Shown here: positions 1,141-61,332 of the stretch, piece after piece | Position numbering within the stretch: position 1 is the first letter of the stretch | Layout: every line of letters begins with the position of its first letter | NCBI GenBank assembly: GCA_947631505.1 | Contig: CANRLR010000001.1 | Location: 62,001 to 126,000, forward strand | Length of the DNA: 64,000 nt | Origin: an uncultured Lachnospiraceae bacterium | GTDB taxonomy: Bacteria; Bacillota; Clostridia; Lachnospirales; Lachnospiraceae | Direction: 5' to 3' | The notes under the pieces: model-generated | Told to the model about the DNA's origin: nothing | The model's input: the letters and a program-made list of their open reading frames with translations, nothing else | Databases searched by the model: none | Program-made: the position numbers and the translations under genes

Positions 1141-2091
1141 TTATCCCAAAGATTCTGCTCCTCCCTCAATCAAATTCAAATTTCTTTCAAAAGGAGTATT
1201 AAAGTTTTTTGTTTCACCATATTTTTCCTGCTGTTCTCCTTCAATCGCGAACTGCACTTTACTGACATTTGGCAATTCACAAAGTGTATTGACGACCGAA
1301 TAAATCACAACATCACTTTTCACATTCAGGACCCGCTCTTCCAATTCGCGGCTAAAGTCCACATAACAAATGTTGTCCCGAATGGTAACACTATTTATTG
1401 TTGTATCCGGCGGAAGAGTCGGCAGAACGTCAGATACATTCAGGTTTTCTATCGCATCCGGTCCCTCAATCAATTTTTCGACCAGAAGCTTTGCCAGTGG
1501 TTCTGCTGCACTATAAGTGACCTCCGATGAGATTTCCTGTAGTTTTTCACCATTGGATGCTGCAAAATATAACGTAACCTGTTTACTCTGCTCCGCATTC
1601 GCAGGATTTAATTCGTCAATGAACATATCACTATTCATAAGCCCCACTGCATTTCCGGACAACATAAGAGGCTGGTCTTCCACATAGAATTCGACATAAT
1701 CAATCCCTTTGATCTGACATAGTGTCTTAACAATCGCTGCTCTGGATAAAATCTCATCCAAGCCGCTTTTATTATTATATCCAGCTGAAAAATAAATCGA
1801 TAACTGATTCTCTTTTACCTGAAAATCACTGATTTCATTATTGGCATCAATCGGATTGATTGTTCTTTTTGCATTCTGCTCCTTTAACTGCAGGAGCAAA
1901 TCGCCAATCACCTCCAGCAAGTCCTGCCTTGGAGCCGTCTGCTCATAATCCTTTGTTACCAGTCCCGTTCCATCTTCATTCAATAAATAGAGCTGATAAC
2001 TGGTGCTCACCATTTCCTCATCCGAACCCTTACAACCTGTCATAGAACACATGAAACATAACAAAATGGAAAAGAACACTGTTTTCTTCAC
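1141..2091 (-). CDS. GerMN-domain lipoprotein
   Basis: Predicted lipoprotein with two GerMN (sporulation/germination) repeats. The GTG start at 2091 has AGGAGG at good spacing; an ATG further upstream lacks an SD. The first 20 residues form a lipoprotein signal ending in the lipobox MTGC (lipidated Cys20). Two related blocks follow, about residues 50-165 and 185-300. Each contains the GerMN pattern of a strand, an ID/NS stretch and VDFS-type ends (IRDNICYVDFSREL in the second). It sits 43 nt after the histidine kinase gene, and in related clostridia such proteins often accompany sensor kinases. A role in monitoring envelope or spore-cortex state is inference; GerM itself acts in spore engulfment and germination. 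Confidence 0.85.
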   Translation of the reverse strand: MKKTVFFSILLCFMCSMTGCKGSDEEMVSTSYQLYLLNEDGTGLVTKDYEQTAPRQDLLEVIGDLLLQLKEQNAKRTINPIDANNEISDFQVKENQLSIYFSAGYNNKSGLDEILSRAAIVKTLCQIKGIDYVEFYVEDQPLMLSGNAVGLMNSDMFIDELNPANAEQSKQVTLYFAASNGEKLQEISSEVTYSAAEPLAKLLVEKLIEGPDAIENLNVSDVLPTLPPDTTINSVTIRDNICYVDFSRELEERVLNVKSDVVIYSVVNTLCELPNVSKVQFAIEGEQQEKYGETKNFNTPFERNLNLIEGGAESLG

Positions 2092-25099: not shown

Positions 25100-26134
25100 T
25101 TATTCTGCCATCTCGGCTTTCAACATCTCAGTCAATTGTGGAACAATCTTATTCAAATCGCCAACAATACCATAATCCGCTACATCAAAAATAGGAGCTG
25201 TCTCATCTTTATTGATAGCAATAATAATATCAGACTCTTCCATACCAGCAACATGCTGGATTGCTCCAGAAATACCAATGGCAAAGTATACGTTCGGACG
25301 TACTGTCTTACCGGTCTGTCCGACCTGAAGATCTTTTGGCAGCCAGCCATTATCCGTTACCGCACGGGAACAGCTTACAGTTCCGCCGATTACATCAGCA
25401 AGATCCTGTAATATCTTGAAGTTCTCTGCACTTCCTACACCACGTCCACCAGATACAAGGATATTGGCATCCATAATATCTACGGTATCCGTAACGGATT
25501 TCACAACATCAAGAATCTCAACGTATTTGTTATTCGGAGTGAATCCCGGATTATATTCAATCACTTCTGCTTTTGCTCCGGCAACCGGCTCAATCTTCTG
25601 CATAACTCCGGCACGTACAGTAGCCATCTGAGGACGGTTATAAGGACATGCAATCGTAGCAATTGTATTACCGCCAAATGCAGGACGAGTCATCAACAAC
25701 TGATTTGGAATCGTTTCCTTTGTCATAGTATCTGTAAAATCACCGATTTCAAGTACCGTACAGTCAGCTGTCAGACCAGTCGCTACACGGGCAGATACAC
25801 GAGGACCTAAGTCACGTCCAATTGCCGTAGCACCTACTAACATAATTTCCGGTTTATACTCATTGATTACACTGGCAAGGCCATGAGCATATGGCTCTGT
25901 TCTGTATACTTCCAATTCCGGATCATCCACAACGATAACTTTGTCTGCACCATATTCAGCAAGAGAATCTGCCAATCCCTTGATGCCGGAACCTAACAAT
26001 ACAGCAGTTACATCTGTATTCAGATCTTTTGCAAGATCTTTTGCTTTGCCGAGAAGTTCAAAAGCGATACTGCTTACTTCACCGTCAACCTGCTGGGCAA
26101 AGACATAAACACCTTTATATTCTTCTAAATTCAT
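25100..26134 (-). CDS. etfA: Electron transfer flavoprotein alpha subunit
   Basis: Pairs with EtfB to carry electrons to or from butyryl-CoA dehydrogenase; in clostridia the complex bifurcates electrons from NADH to crotonyl-CoA and ferredoxin. The C-terminal FAD domain shows SGGRGVGSAENF, SRAVTDNGW and the GISGAIQHVAGM block. The ATG at 26134 follows GGAGG; the ATG 12 bases upstream lies within that SD. 344 residues. Its SD lies inside the downstream direct repeat of a family A element, which separates it from etfB. Confidence 0.96.
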   Translation of the reverse strand: MNLEEYKGVYVFAQQVDGEVSSIAFELLGKAKDLAKDLNTDVTAVLLGSGIKGLADSLAEYGADKVIVVDDPELEVYRTEPYAHGLASVINEYKPEIMLVGATAIGRDLGPRVSARVATGLTADCTVLEIGDFTDTMTKETIPNQLLMTRPAFGGNTIATIACPYNRPQMATVRAGVMQKIEPVAGAKAEVIEYNPGFTPNNKYVEILDVVKSVTDTVDIMDANILVSGGRGVGSAENFKILQDLADVIGGTVSCSRAVTDNGWLPKDLQVGQTGKTVRPNVYFAIGISGAIQHVAGMEESDIIIAINKDETAPIFDVADYGIVGDLNKIVPQLTEMLKAEMAE

Positions 26135-26136
26135 TT

Positions 26137-26288
26137 TACCCTCCATTCCGGAGCGTTATGCGACGGGGCGATGAGAAAGCCGCGGATGCGGTTTCTCATC
26201 TGCCATCAAAGCTTATTTGTGACGCTCCGGCACAAATAGCTGTGCGAAAAATAAGTATCGAGCTTATTTTTCACACTACCCTCCATTC
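26137..26288 (-). repeat. Multi-hairpin element family A, copy 1 (etfB/etfA)
   Basis: A ~128-bp core (26149-26276) bounded by 12-bp direct repeats TACCCTCCATTC (26137-26148, 26277-26288), which on the mRNA strand read GAATGGAGGGTA, the etfA SD. Minus-strand order: hairpin 1 (GTGTGAAAAATAAG with CTTATTTTTCGCAC), hairpin 2 (ATTTGTG/CACAAAT), hairpin 3 (GATGAGAAA with TTTCTCATC, GC-rich tip), and GGAGCGT able to pair with terminal ACGCTCC. No ORF. Confidence 0.9.
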
Positions 26289-26292
26289 TTCG

Positions 26293-27075
26293 CTAGATTA
26301 CATGTTTCTCTTTTAATTTGTCAACGATATAAGTTGCAGCTTCGGAACCGTCTAAAGTAACTACTTCACCGGCACCCTTACGAACCTTGTCAGAAGCTTT
26401 TGCAATCTTAGTAGGTGAACCCTTCAATCCGAGATTAGAATCGTCTACATCCTTCAGATCTGCTCTGCCCCATACGGTAATTTCTTTTGCATAAGCATCC
26501 ATAATTCCGCCCGGAGTCATATAGCGTGGCTCGTTCAGTTCAGAAAGAGCAGTAATCAGACATGGCATTTTTGCTTTCACTTTATGATATCTGTCTTCAT
26601 ACTGACGCTCAACAATTACACTGTCACCCTCAATCTTGATATCCTGTGCATAGGAAATTACAGGAATTCCCAGATGTTCAGAAATCTGAGGTCCGACCTG
26701 TGCGGTATCTCCGTCAATCGCCTGACGTCCCGTAATAATCAAATCATAATCAATATTTCTCAATGCACCGGCAATTGTTGTAGAAGTAGCCCATGTATCT
26801 GCTCCGCCAAGTACACGGTCTGTTACAAGAATACCATGATCAGCACCCATTGCCATAGCCTCACGGAGAACTTCCTCTGCTTTTGGAAGTCCCATCGTAA
26901 GAACGGTAACTTCTGCTCCTATTTCATCCTTAATCTTGAGTGCGGCTTCCAATCCTGCTTTATCATCCGGATTCATAATGGTAAGCATGGCACCTCTATT
27001 TAATGTACCATCTGGGTTAAATACGACTCCACCCTTTGTATCTGGTACCTGTTTAATACATACTACAATTTTCAC
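26293..27075 (-). CDS. etfB: Electron transfer flavoprotein beta subunit
   Basis: 260-residue EtfB; MKIVVCIKQVPDT start, the DGDTAQVGPQISEHLG nucleotide-binding segment and the AKMPCLITALSELNEPRY family signature. Clostridial bifurcating EtfB binds a second FAD and NADH here. It lies 11 nt after bcd. In this operon it is separated from etfA by an inserted repeat rather than the usual short gap. Confidence 0.96.
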   Translation of the reverse strand: MKIVVCIKQVPDTKGGVVFNPDGTLNRGAMLTIMNPDDKAGLEAALKIKDEIGAEVTVLTMGLPKAEEVLREAMAMGADHGILVTDRVLGGADTWATSTTIAGALRNIDYDLIITGRQAIDGDTAQVGPQISEHLGIPVISYAQDIKIEGDSVIVERQYEDRYHKVKAKMPCLITALSELNEPRYMTPGGIMDAYAKEITVWGRADLKDVDDSNLGLKGSPTKIAKASDKVRKGAGEVVTLDGSEAATYIVDKLKEKHVI

Positions 27076-27086
27076 AAGAGCACCTC

Positions 27087-28238
27087 CTATTTCAATAAGC
27101 TACCAGAGATTACCATACGCTGAACTTCTGAAGTACCTTCGTAGATTTCTGTGATTTTAGCATCACGCATCATACGCTCAACGTCATATTCTCTAATATA
27201 ACCATAACCACCGTGTAACTGAACTGCTTTTGTTGTTACTTCCATAGCAACTTCTGCCGCATACAATTTTGCCATAGCAGCTTCCACACTGTATACTTTC
27301 TGTGTTGCCTTTGCCATAGCAGCCCGGTAAACCATAAGTTTAGCAGCCTGTACCTTTGTAGCCATGTCAGCTAACTGGAACTGAGTGTTCTGGAACTGAG
27401 CAATGGAACGGCCAAACTGTTTTCTCTCTTTTACATAATCGATGGTTGCCTGTAAAGCACCCTCTGCAAGTCCAAGAGCCTGAGCAGCGATTCCGATACG
27501 GCCTCCATCCAATGTGTGCATAGCAATTCCAAAACCTTTACCCTGTGCACCAAGAAGGTTCTCTTTTGGAATACGGCAATCCTCGAAGATCAATTCATAC
27601 GTAGAAGAACCACGGATACCCATTTTCTTCTCTTTTGTTCCGAAAGAAAAGCCCGGAGTACCTTTTTCTACGATGAAAGCAGAAATTTCTTTCATCTTTC
27701 TGCCACGTTTCTCAACGATTCCGGTTACTGCAATTACGATGTAAATATCTGCCTGCTTACCATTTGTGATGAAGCACTTAGAGCCATTCAATACCCACTC
27801 ATCACCGTCTAAAACAGCCTTTGTCTGCTGTCCCTGCGCATCGGTACCGGCACCCGGCTCAGTAAGACCGAACGCACCAAGTTTTTCTCCGCTTGCAAGT
27901 GGAACTAAGTATTTCTGTTTCTGCTCTTCGGTACCATACATCATAATCGGATCAGCACCCAGAGAAGAATGTGCAGAAACGATAACGCTTGTCGTACCAC
28001 AGACCTTTGCAAGCTCCTCTACACACATTGTATACATTAATGGGTCGCAGCCCTGTCCGCCATACTCTTTTGGAATGGCAATTCCCATGAAACCAAGTTT
28101 CTGCATTTTTTCAACAGTCTCAGCAGGGAATCTTTCTTCTTCATCAATATCCTGAGCAAGTGGCTTTACTTCATTTTCAGCAAAATCCTGAAACAACTGT
28201 CTCGCCATCTCATGCTGCTTGTCTAAATTAAAATCCAT
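27087..28238 (-). CDS. bcd: Butyryl-CoA dehydrogenase
   Basis: Acyl-CoA dehydrogenase fold, 383 residues, reducing crotonyl-CoA to butyryl-CoA with EtfAB. Catalytic base Glu367 in IYEGTSEVQ; FAD/substrate segments GLTEPGAGTDAQ, FITNGKQAD and QLHGGYGYI. Fourth gene of thl-crt-hbd-bcd-etfB-etfA. The paired etf genes favour the butyrate role over a catabolic acyl-CoA dehydrogenase. Confidence 0.96.
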   Translation of the reverse strand: MDFNLDKQHEMARQLFQDFAENEVKPLAQDIDEEERFPAETVEKMQKLGFMGIAIPKEYGGQGCDPLMYTMCVEELAKVCGTTSVIVSAHSSLGADPIMMYGTEEQKQKYLVPLASGEKLGAFGLTEPGAGTDAQGQQTKAVLDGDEWVLNGSKCFITNGKQADIYIVIAVTGIVEKRGRKMKEISAFIVEKGTPGFSFGTKEKKMGIRGSSTYELIFEDCRIPKENLLGAQGKGFGIAMHTLDGGRIGIAAQALGLAEGALQATIDYVKERKQFGRSIAQFQNTQFQLADMATKVQAAKLMVYRAAMAKATQKVYSVEAAMAKLYAAEVAMEVTTKAVQLHGGYGYIREYDVERMMRDAKITEIYEGTSEVQRMVISGSLLK

Positions 28239-28273
28239 GTTTACATGAACTCCTTTCTATCATTTTCAACGAA

Positions 28274-29116
28274 TTATTTGGAATAATCATAGAATCCAAT
28301 GCCTGTCTTACGTCCCAATTTGCCGGCACGAACCATTTTTCTCAGCAATGGATGTGGACGATATTTGGAATCTCCGGTCTCTGCCTGAAGAACTTCCATA
28401 ATGGCAAGACAAATATCAAGACCAACCAGATCTCCAAGAGCCAAAGGTCCCATTGGATGATTTGCACCGAGCTGCATGGCGGCATCGATACCTTCAACAG
28501 AAGCAACACCGTCAGCCAAAATACCAACTGCCTCATTAATCATAGGAATCAAAATTCGATTTACAACAAATCCGGCTGCTTCTTTTACCTCTACTGGAGT
28601 TTTACCGATTTCTTTTGCAATAGCAACCACTTTGTCATTCACTTCATCCGTTGTATTTTCTCCGCGAATAACCTCAACCAGTTTCATAACAGGAGCCGGA
28701 TTAAAGAAATGCATTCCGATTACCGGATGGGAAATTCCGGCACCGATCTCTGTAATAGAAAGAGAAGAAGTGTTTGTTGCAAAAATGCAGTCTTCTTTCT
28801 TTACAATATCCTGTAACTCCTTGAATGTCTGTTTTTTCACATCCATAACTTCAAGAGCAGCCTCAACAATGATATCACAATCGGTGCAGATATCTTTCAC
28901 ACCTGTTGTAATTTTAGCAAGAATTGCATCTACTTCTTCCTGTGTTTTCTTACCTTTGTCAACTAATCTCTGAAGACCTTTTGCAATTTTATTTTTTCCA
29001 TTTGCAGCGAACTCTTCATTAATGTCACAAAGACATACTTCATAACCCTCTGTCTGAGCAAAAGCCTGTGCAATTCCAGAGCCCATTGTTCCTGCACCAA
29101 TAACACCTACTATCAT
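28274..29116 (-). CDS. hbd: 3-hydroxybutyryl-CoA dehydrogenase
   Basis: Reduces acetoacetyl-CoA to 3-hydroxybutyryl-CoA. The Rossmann motif [13 protein letters not shown] is at the N-terminus, catalytic His in [17 protein letters not shown] and Asn in TNTSSLSI; the C-terminal domain has [15 protein letters not shown]. 280 residues, typical. An 11-bp intercistronic hairpin lies upstream, after crt. Confidence 0.96.
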
Positions 29117-29143
29117 TTTATTTTCCTCCTAATTTTTATTATT

Positions 29144-29175
29144 CTGCAGCATACTTCTTTTGCTGTATGCTGCAG
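29144..29175 (-). other. Intercistronic hairpin between crt and hbd
   Basis: CTGCAGCATAC (29144-29154) pairs perfectly with GTATGCTGCAG (29165-29175) around a 10-base loop. No U-run follows on the mRNA strand, so it is more likely an mRNA stability or processing element than a terminator. Confidence 0.6.
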
Positions 29176-29193
29176 TAATATTTATGATTCTAA

Positions 29194-29985
29194 TTAACAA
29201 TTTTTGAAAGGAACTACTTTCAGCTTCTTTTCTTTATCCTTCTCAAGGAAATTACCCATACCGGCCTTTTGGTCTTCGGTCTCAAAGCAGTCACCAAACA
29301 ATTTCTCTTCCACTACAACCGCTTCATCCATATTCACCTGAAGTCCATCATTTATGGCTTTCTTACAGTTGCGAACGGCAATCGGTGCCTGTGCAGCAAT
29401 TCCAGCAGCCATTTTCTTAGCTGCAGGCATAAGCTCTTCCAATGGATACACTGCATTGACAAGTCCGATCCGGTATGCTTCTTCTGCTTTTATATTCCGG
29501 GCAGTATAAATTAACTGTTTTGCCATACCCGGACTGACCAGACGGGCCAGTCTCTGTGTTCCACCAAAGCCCGGTGTAATTCCAAGTCCTACTTCCGGCT
29601 GGCCAAATACTGCATTCTCAGAACAGATACGAATATCACAGCTCATCGAAATCTCACATCCACCACCAAGAGCAAATCCGTTTACTGCTGCAATAACAGG
29701 AATTGGGAATGTCTCCAATTTGCGGAATACATCATTTCCCTTTTTACCAAATGCTTCTCCCTCTGCCTTAGTCAGCGTACTCATCTCACCAATATCGGCA
29801 CCGGCAACAAAAGATTTTTCTCCCTCACCAGTCAGAATCAGACAACGGATTGCATTCTGGTCTACTGCGTCCAGCGTTTCATTTAACTCATCTAATACTG
29901 TACTATTTAATGCATTCAGTGCTTTGGGACGGTTAATGGTAATAATACCAACCATACCCTCTACTTCATATTTAATGAATTCCAT
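29194..29985 (-). CDS. crt: Crotonase (3-hydroxybutyryl-CoA dehydratase)
   Basis: Dehydrates 3-hydroxybutyryl-CoA to crotonyl-CoA. Catalytic Glu111 (GGGCEISMSCD) and Glu131 (GQPEVGLGI); oxyanion-hole AGADIGEM. The ATG at 29985 behind AATGGAGG is the start; the open frame continues upstream through the inserted family A element but that part is not coding. 263 residues. Confidence 0.96.
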   Translation of the reverse strand: MEFIKYEVEGMVGIITINRPKALNALNSTVLDELNETLDAVDQNAIRCLILTGEGEKSFVAGADIGEMSTLTKAEGEAFGKKGNDVFRKLETFPIPVIAAVNGFALGGGCEISMSCDIRICSENAVFGQPEVGLGITPGFGGTQRLARLVSPGMAKQLIYTARNIKAEEAYRIGLVNAVYPLEELMPAAKKMAAGIAAQAPIAVRNCKKAINDGLQVNMDEAVVVEEKLFGDCFETEDQKAGMGNFLEKDKEKKLKVVPFKNC

Positions 29986-29987
29986 TT

Positions 29988-30137
29988 TAATCCTCCATTC
30001 CGAAGCGTTTATGCGACGGGGCGACGAGAAAATCTTCGATTTCTCGTCTGCCATCGAAGCTATTTGTGACGCTCCGGCACAAAATAGCCGTGTAAAAAAT
30101 ATGCTATCGAGCATATTTTTCACACTAATCCTCCATT
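29988..30137 (-). repeat. Multi-hairpin element family A, copy 2 (thl/crt)
   Basis: A ~126-bp core (30000-30125) between direct repeats TAATCCTCCATT (29988-29999, 30126-30137), on the mRNA strand AATGGAGGATTA, the crt SD. These flanks differ from those of copy 1 but match each other, as expected for a target duplication. The hairpins are conserved: the first stem pairs ATATGC with GCATAT where copy 3 pairs ATAAGC with GCTTAT, and the third is GACGAG/CTCGTC where copy 1 has GATGAG/CTCATC. Confidence 0.9.
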
Positions 30138-30142
30138 TTTAA

Positions 30143-31327
30143 TTATTCTCTCTCAACAATAGTAGAACATCCCATTCCACCACCGATACAAAGTGTCGCA
30201 AGACCTTTCTTTGCATCTCTCTTCTGCATCTCATGAAGCAGAGTAACAAGAATACGGCATCCACTTGCTCCTACCGGATGTCCGAGTGCGATGGCACCAC
30301 CATTTACATTCAGCTTACTAAGGTCAAAATTCAAATCACGGCCTACGGCAATTGACTGTGCAGCAAATGCCTCATTTGCCTCAACTAAATCCATATCATC
30401 AATGGTCAGACCGGTCTTAGCAAATACCTTCTTTGTAGCAGCAACTGGTCCCACACCCATGATTTTAGGATCAACACCGCCAAGAGCACCGGCAACAAAG
30501 GTAGCCATCGGTGTAACACCGAGCTCTTTTGCTTTCTCTTCGCTCATAACAACAATAGCTGCTGCTCCGTCATTAATTCCGGAAGCGTTACCAGCAGTTA
30601 CCAGTCCGCCCTCTTTTCCGGAACAGCACTTCAAAGCACTAAGACTCTCTGCTGTTGTGCCGGCACGAGGTCCTTCATCTGTATCAAATACGATTGTTTT
30701 CTTTTTCTGTTTAATTTCAACTGGAACGATTTCATCTTTAAATTTACCTTCAGCCATTGCTTTTTCACATTTCTGCTGGCTGTTTGCAGAGAACTCATCC
30801 AGCTCTTCACGAGTGATTCCATACTGCTCTGCTACATTCTCAGCAGTAATCATCATATGATACTGGTTGAAAGCATCCCAAAGAGCATCATTCACCATGG
30901 TATCTACCAGCTTACCATTGTTCATTCTGTAACCAAAACGTGCGTTCATAGCTGCATAAGGAGCCATGGACATATTCTCCATACCACCTGCTACAACGAT
31001 ATCAGCATCACCGGTCTGAATCATCTGAGCTGCCATGTTAACACAGTTCAATCCAGAACCACAAACTACATTTACCGTAACTGCTGTCGTTTCAATTGGA
31101 AGACCTGCACCAATTGAAGCCTGACGTGCCACATTCTGTCCCAAGCCTGCCTGAATTACGCATCCCATATAAACATGGTCAACGGCATCCTTTGGAACAC
31201 CAGCTCTTTTCAGAGCTTCCTCAATTACAATAGAACCAAGTTTTGGTGCTGAAGTTGTGCTGAGCGCACCACCCATTTTACCAATCGCTGTACGACAAGC
31301 ACCTGCTAAAACTACCTTTTTAGACAT
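30143..31327 (-). CDS. thl: Acetyl-CoA C-acetyltransferase (thiolase)
   Basis: Condenses two acetyl-CoA to acetoacetyl-CoA, the entry to butyrate. Nucleophile Cys89 in [21 protein letters not shown], the His in [14 protein letters not shown] and second Cys380 in [10 protein letters not shown]. The ATG at 31327 follows AAGGAGG; the open frame upstream has no SD. 394 residues. First gene of the butyrate operon, 58 nt after coaD with no terminator between. Confidence 0.96.
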
Positions 31328-61189: not shown

Positions 61190-61207
61190 CTTATTTTAAT
61201 CTCCATT

Positions 61208-61332
61208 CCGGAGCGTTTACGCGACGGGGCGACGAGAAAATCTCCGATTTCTCGTCTGCCATCAGAACTATTTGTGATGCTCCGGCACAAATAGCCGTGT
61301 GAAAAATAAGCTATCAAGCTTATTTTTCACAC
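61208..61332 (-). repeat. Multi-hairpin element family A, copy 3
   Basis: About 125 bp, same orientation as the copies at 26137 and 29988. Hairpin 1 is perfect here (GTGTGAAAAATAAGCT with its complement, loop TGAT); hairpin 3 is GACGAGAAATC/GATTTTCTCGTC. It starts within the end of the HD-GYP gene, whose stop TGA is part of GTGTGA, and ends at GGAATGGAGAT before the spoIVA promoter. No matching direct repeat is visible. Confidence 0.88.

Follow-up and report, generated by a model that had tools for sequence, protein, structure and literature searches.

REP/REPIN sequences with RAYT and the palindromic derivatives of IS200/IS605 carry hairpins at their ends, have no terminal inverted repeats, and are elements for which orientation matters. 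The IS110 family is likewise without terminal inverted repeats and inserts in an oriented and sequence-specific manner. For mobile sequences in general, most insertions inside operons are expected to be harmful. In the part of the literature drawn on here, BOX of Streptococcus pneumoniae is described as a short interspersed repeat of interchangeable hairpin modules with terminal inverted repeats, for which a movement helper is not proven, and MITEs as small, non-autonomous and strongly base-paired elements with target duplication, terminal inverted repeats and a parent insertion sequence (PMC3049150). We analyzed a multi-hairpin element, present in three copies in a 64,000-nucleotide stretch of DNA from an uncultured Lachnospiraceae bacterium (hereafter the window), and compared it with these systems.

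The first copy lies on the minus strand between etfB (26293–27075), the upstream gene of the operon, and etfA (25100–26134), which encodes the electron-transfer flavoprotein alpha and whose start is interrupted; these names, as well as crotonase, spoIVA-like, atpD, trpS, and nadE-like used below, were read from translations. Two identical 12-bp repeats, TACCCTCCATTC (GAATGGAGGGTA on the minus strand), at 26137–26148 and 26277–26288 enclose a core of 128 bp (26149–26276), and along the genes the order is etfB stop, GAATGGAGGGTA, the 128-nt core, GAATGGAGGGTA, AA and the etfA ATG. An earlier note on this DNA had described the element as bounded by identical 12-bp direct repeats holding the Shine–Dalgarno sequence (SD) of etfA, and both coordinates and sequence were confirmed. 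The upstream repeat (26277–26288) is the former etfA SD region, now placed 5′ of the element and equal to the empty site of two relatives, G015 and G022, while the downstream repeat (26137–26148) carries the GGAGGG (26139–26144) that now serves etfA, with its ATG at 26134–26132. In the core, hairpin A (GTGTGAAAAATAAGC..., 26242–26276) marks the start of the element, here or 1–2 nt before, as checked against an empty site. It is followed by hairpin B (26211–26240), whose loop CCGGAGCGT (26222–26230) is complementary to the element 3′ end, and by hairpin C (26170–26200), an exchangeable module which differs in sequence between subfamilies and is missing from some copies. The 3′ strand ACGCTCCGG (26148–26156) ends the core immediately before the SD region and is able to base-pair with loop B. 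All these features are on the minus strand. Terminal inverted repeats were not found, the only inverted repeat of at least 10 nt in 25900–26500 being hairpin A, and in the copies compared the two element ends differ (GTGTGAAAA vs. CGCTYCGG and similar).

It had also been argued in the earlier note that removal of the core and one repeat leaves a normal etfB/etfA junction, and relatives hold exactly such a junction: G015 and G022 read CAAGAATGGAGGGTAAAATG, keeping the duplicated sequence GAATGGAGGGTAAAATG in its unoccupied form. Among 18 relatives of the same genus with a readable etfB/etfA junction 17 were element-free. In G014 the etfA position that is occupied in the present genome (G000) carries an element of another subfamily, to the left of which the old upstream context is preserved. 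Beyond etfA, eight loci were queried in G006, G014, G015, and G022, giving 19 matches. The thl-crt, atpG-atpD and spoIVA-like junctions were element-free in all four genomes, the trpS and nadE-like junctions in G006, G014, and G015, and an ABC gene junction in G006; some element-free junctions hold other short hairpins. The comparison of flanks with relatives, which had been proposed as a check, thus returned element-free junctions at etfA and at six other own-genome loci. In the near-identical genomes G022 and G050 (the latter 81% complete) five of twelve queried loci could be matched, and one of them provides a recent full/empty pair, in which the full locus L279 and the empty locus L325 of G050 are 99.6% identical over 247 nt and the duplication, AATGAGGTT, measures 8–9 bp. 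The empty L325 site looks like the end of an older element, and hence has a history of its own. At the other four matched loci G050 has one copy without hairpins A and B, two copies with fewer modules and one different element.

The other two copies in the window are also on the minus strand. Copy 2 (29988–30137) occupies the thiolase/crotonase (thl-crt) junction with a 12-bp repeat, AATGGAGGATTA, and copy 3 (61197–61332) lies upstream of the spoIVA-like gene without a direct repeat; in copy 3 the right-end SD is followed by AAAATAAGACAT, and the ATG does not come directly after the SD. All three copies are sense to the next gene, in agreement with the single orientation noticed earlier for three copies in 64 kb. 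A 309-aa open frame (29194–30123, minus strand) begins within copy 2 and continues in frame into the crotonase gene, so that annotation programs might give the protein a spurious N-terminal extension. When the own genome (2.74 Mb) was searched for further copies, as had been suggested, the 152-bp query gave 19 matches at E ≤ 0.001, including the three in the window; some of the 19 are truncated copies, and one (L018) is a plain gene start resembling the element 5′ end. A covariance model of hairpins A and B (R1) gave 28 matches in the same genome, which may include antisense palindrome matches, and 13 under stricter filters. The copy before the nadE-like gene (L011) has a 6S RNA gene (1628–1836, minus strand) about 60 nt upstream of it.

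The earlier note had supposed a family spread through the genome, and the spread proved wider. An exact scan of a genome collection for hairpin A returned 110 stretches, and the matches listed (80 of 110) were all metagenome-assembled genomes named Roseburia, Acetatifactor, Eisenbergiella, Lachnospira, Lachnoclostridium, Lachnospiraceae, Eubacteriales or Clostridia. The hairpin A and B model matched in 32 of 39 genus genomes, the highest count in a single genome being 41, antisense palindrome matches possibly included. Across the class, under the stricter filters, it matched in four of 391 sampled genomes, namely the own genome, G052, G417, and G128. G417, of the same family and another genus, has 13 model matches, and in the nine loci read the architecture is kept with different stem sequences; the one weak match in G128 is unlike the element on reading.

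For statistics we assembled a copy set from 96 of 148 rows of one match list (98 loci) and 106 of 217 rows of another (100 of the 110 hairpin A-scan loci), leaving out antisense palindrome matches, copies cut by contig ends and weak partial matches. The resulting 202 copies were reduced to 189 by removing identical ones; in 178 the right end was found by pattern, and 176 of these were distinct. A first junction set consisted of 98 of the 100 hairpin A-scan copies with a right end. As the exact scan used hairpin A, and R1 models A and B, the set is enriched for conserved hairpin A; the hairpin A-scan loci and the later model-derived loci overlap in genomes, and in all shuffles given below related copies are not independent.

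The copies land with great regularity before genes. An ATG opening a frame (of at least 50 aa, or at least 25 where the frame runs off the sequence) stands 13–14 nt after the element 3′ end (CGG/CAG) in 118 of 178 copies, compared with 236 of 20,000 random positions, and 8–23 nt after it in 139 of 178, compared with 1,840 of 20,000. On the opposite side and strand an ATG frame within 8–23 nt occurred in only 3 of 180, which bears out the fixed orientation relative to genes. With ATG, GTG or TTG allowed, a start followed the right end in 145 of 178 copies vs. 704 of 4,000 random positions, and none was found in the remaining 33. The 3′ end typically reads CGCTYCGG followed by GGAATGGAGNNTA, which puts an SD before the ATG. 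On the other side, 148 of 176 distinct copies have SD-like sequence in the 12 nt preceding the element, compared with 2,479 of 20,000 random 12-mers. A same-strand frame of at least 80 codons ends no more than 120 nt upstream in 104 of 179 copies (10 further copies being too close to the sequence end), so that many copies may sit inside operons. Selection certainly shapes this set, but such precision would not be expected if the elements landed at random and only the harmless few survived.

Exact repeats of at least 6 bp ending at the junction were present in 24 of 176 copies, while 2,000 shuffles gave a mean of 8.7 and a maximum of 16; in the first set the count was 18 of 98 (shuffled mean 6.0, maximum 14). 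Repeats that lie one base away from the junction, as in L279, escape this count. The repeat letters match between the two ends of one copy more than between copies. The proposal that insertion duplicates the SD is supported at etfA and for the pair L279/L325, and with element-free sites in relatives and direct repeats in further copies neither of the two outcomes named in advance as contrary to it was encountered. Most copies have no identical repeats by this count, and a plain transposase duplication does not describe them. Copies without exact repeats are mostly SD-like at both ends with the two ends not identical, so the right-hand SD often belongs to the element itself. In G023, for example, the left flank is SD-like in most copies and the right end is often a fixed GGAATGGAGATTA followed by NNATG. 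Both junctions fall within the SD-spacer interval, and the change from target to element sequence occurs at variable points, an interval of about 8–9 nt or more being an exact duplicate in some copies and hybrid or element-type in others. Such variable junctions would fit a staggered exchange with repair to either parent and, equally, template switching between SDs.

Loop B and the 3′ strand beside the SD are complementary, and their sequence types change together. Covarying loop/3′-end pairs are CCGGAGCGT/ACGCTCCGG, CCGGAGCAT/ATGCTCCGG, CCGAAGCAC/GTGCTTCGG, CCGAAGCGC/GCGCTTCGG, TTTCTGAGC/GCTCAGAAA, and CGTAGACGC/GCGTCTACG, together with TGTCGGAGC/GCTCCGACA in G417; some of the tails displayed were picked by best complementarity and serve as illustration only. 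Over the 176 copies the longest loop–3′-end helix had a mean of 8.0, vs. 6.7 with the partners shuffled (maximum 6.95 in 500 shuffles). Standard pairs occupied 329 of 360 cells in the 40 types that were in register and had an 11-nt loop (shuffled mean 309, maximum 319 in 5,000), a choice of types by tail letters that itself favours pairing; with all 58 core/tail types, misplaced tails included, 386 of 522 cells were paired, a value matched by 6 of 5,000 shuffles. G-U exceeded A-C in this helix by 25 to 11 in the 40 types and by 44 to 32 in the 58 types, and the excess leans toward pairing in the sense strand. In stems A, B, and C the counts of G-T and A-C were 18/12, 11/11, and 17/19, with no clear strand preference; the hairpins thus give no clear sign of selection as RNA, and the loop-B helix is better supported. 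Searches of Rfam 15 gave no match up to E 5 in window positions 26000–30500, no match for L393 and, at gathering score over eight loci, only the 6S RNA beside the L011 copy and nothing on the element.

Hairpin C occurs in several different sequences, and some copies hold additional hairpins between A and B. Among the reduced forms read, hairpin C stands alone in L359 and L385, L364 has a B-like hairpin and no other, and L387 has a reduced A, and comparison of G022 with G050 showed modules exchanged and lost at single loci. Different subfamilies were seen at one gene start in two closely related genomes (L273 and L327), which points to turnover or replacement in place. In G023 (L243–L262) near-identical copies stand before unrelated genes, which suggests recent activity. 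Tandem or neighbouring copies were noticed at L231, L067, and L091, where one element starts directly after the SD of another. The 3′ motif ACGCTTCGGAATGGAGG was also found alone before start codons of the own genome, without hairpins A or B (L374, L378, L382, L386), and in L374 it forms a small GAAGCG-GAAA-CGCTTC hairpin; such solo motifs may be element remnants, or an older leader that gave rise to the element end. These solo and reduced forms come from 16 loci read out of 79 right-end matches in G000, G002, G023, and G049.

Several identities were considered and rejected. The 5′ end, SD-N-GTG AAA AAT..., is open for at least 20 codons in most copies, which raised the possibility of a leader peptide. 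The distance from GTG to loop B is in one frame in 112 of 165 distinct copies, 18-nt hairpin inserts included, but 42 and 11 copies, whole subfamilies among them, fall in the other two frames; the peptide was rejected as a conserved gene, though it may have a local role. A group II intron was considered on account of the GTGYG-like 5′ end and was rejected with no Rfam match and no RVT_1 match in G000 or G023. A phage or plasmid origin was likewise rejected, with no exact match in viral_contigs (two patterns) and none in plasmids; three short unannotated faecal 'Bacteriophage sp.' records (MT837007.1, MT836788.1, MT838414.1) showed matches over 57–63% of the query. The matches listed in a full-text literature search (preprints outside its scope) contained no description of this element family.

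The search for a transposase or reverse transcriptase with matching ends, which the earlier note had called for, was performed with Y1_Tnp, RVT_1, and IS110 and found none; absence here is weak evidence, as metagenome assemblies may lose genes, repeated ones above all. No autonomous copy was seen among 100 hairpin A-scan copies with a right end (2 of them spurious) and 10 without, the latter mostly at locus ends, nor among the 16 right-end matches that were read out of 79. IS110 matches were over the cut-off in 20 of 39 genomes, with one in G000 and only a below-cut-off match in G023. The own genome has an intact IS110-type transposase gene of 391 aa (L393, 1923–3376), which adjoins copy L009, an element truncated on the right at CGGAA. 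Possibly the gene was inserted at the end of that element; it was read as a bystander and rejected as the mobiliser.

Taken together, these observations make it probable that the copies belong to a new SD-targeted family of modular, non-autonomous elements, which insert across the SD-spacer interval in such a way that the downstream SD serves the gene. Insertion would proceed by strand exchange or a staggered cut across the SD-spacer, carried out by a trans-acting recombinase or transposase, and mismatches at the junction would be repaired toward either parent. The gene would still be translated from the downstream SD and insertions in operons would be tolerated; judging from sequence, the interrupted gene is probably still readable through the SD supplied by the element. 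In favour of this explanation are the element-free sites, the recent full/empty pair, the different subfamilies at etfA, the near-identical copies in G023, the tandem copy L231, the placement of SD and ATG, the covariation of loop B and the architecture shared with G417. Against it stand the small number of exact repeats, the left flanks that are not SD-like (28 of 176), the right ends without a 50-aa frame (33 of 178), the failure to find a mobiliser, the short hairpins at some element-free junctions and the likeness of the empty L325 site to an element end; given the solo 3′ motif, the right end could also derive in part from an older leader. A bolder version, which we regard as rather unlikely, is that the element is a SINE-like parasite for which the SD itself is the place of integration. 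Its own SD would pair with, or recombine into, that of any gene by way of an RNA or a single-stranded intermediate, the fold of loop B with the 3′ end presenting the SD.

The same junctions could also arise without any dedicated enzyme, if a cassette between SD-like repeats were carried from one SD to another when replication switches template, or by exchange over short homology. SDs stand in the same orientation before most genes, and orientation and site would then follow automatically. The junctions inside SD homology, changing from target type to element type at variable points, the tandem copies, the solo 3′ ends and the failure to find a mobiliser all suit such a process. The homology is, however, only about 5–9 nt, 28 of 176 left flanks have no SD-like sequence, the left end is at hairpin A in the collected copies (a set chosen by hairpin A), and the near-identical copies of G023 suggest efficient mobilisation; we hold exchange of this kind to be possible but not probable. 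An RNA route is more doubtful still. Here a piece of mRNA with GGAGATTA at its end would base-pair with the strand opposite the SD of a target gene, where reverse transcription would turn it into DNA in a SINE-like manner. It would give sense orientation, SD targeting and a short duplication, and it agrees with the orientation and SD targeting of the copies, with a folded 3′ end that covaries, with the G-U excess in loop B and with the failure to find terminal inverted repeats. But RVT_1 was without a match in G000 and also in G023, where the near-identical copies are (a weak point, since assemblies can lose repeated genes), its presence in 17 of 39 genomes bears no relation to copy number evident by eye, and stems A to C are without a clear G-T excess.

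Two further explanations appear very improbable. Hairpins near the ends, fixed orientation and no terminal inverted repeats would be in keeping with insertion by a Y1 transposase of the HUH class, like those of IS200/IS605 or RAYT, that works on hairpins in single-stranded DNA, but no Y1_Tnp match was found in G000 (99.7% complete) or G023 (98%), with matches in 10 of the 39 genus genomes, and target duplication is not expected for the Y1 mechanism. Nor does an immobile, riboswitch-like leader RNA before many genes explain the data well. The conserved pairing beside the SD, the sense orientation and the solo 3′ motif before genes would all be natural for a leader, yet the element-free orthologous sites already contradict it, and target duplication, the presence of near-identical copies before genes that are unrelated, the finding of different subfamilies in one and the same place and the lack of an Rfam match on the element speak against it as well.

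If the SD-targeted family is real, it appears to avoid damage by landing where the part that is lost, the ribosome-binding site, is replaced, as at etfA, atpD, trpS, and the nadE-like gene. The family also provides a natural experiment on translation initiation, in which related genomes offer the same gene both with a folded leader and without one, and it can cause false N-terminal extensions in gene annotation. Were the SD itself the address, integration would follow an unusual rule, with the host's ribosome-binding code as the address system of the parasite. The BOX and MITE repeats known to us do not combine an SD target with an SD at their own end. The present element shares the end hairpins, the orientation and the lack of terminal inverted repeats with REP/REPIN-RAYT and the IS200/IS605 derivatives, and differs from both in having no Y1_Tnp match in two copy-rich genomes and in a duplication of its target interval. 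Like IS110 it is oriented, sequence-specific in its insertion and without terminal inverted repeats, but it has no gene of its own. With MITEs it has in common that it is small, non-autonomous and strongly base-paired, with target duplication in part of the copies, whereas it has no terminal inverted repeats, keeps a strict orientation and SD target, and a parent insertion sequence was not found. Like BOX it is a modular interspersed hairpin repeat, with modules exchanged and lost between G022 and G050, and it is set apart from BOX, as far as the published description drawn on here goes, by having no terminal inverted repeats (PMC3049150). It further differs from BOX in standing only in sense between SD and start codon, in bearing an SD at its own end and in having a loop that pairs with the 3′ end. 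By these features the element would take its place with the small non-autonomous interspersed repeats of the BOX and MITE kind, distinguished from them by its SD target, its own-end SD and its lack of terminal inverted repeats.
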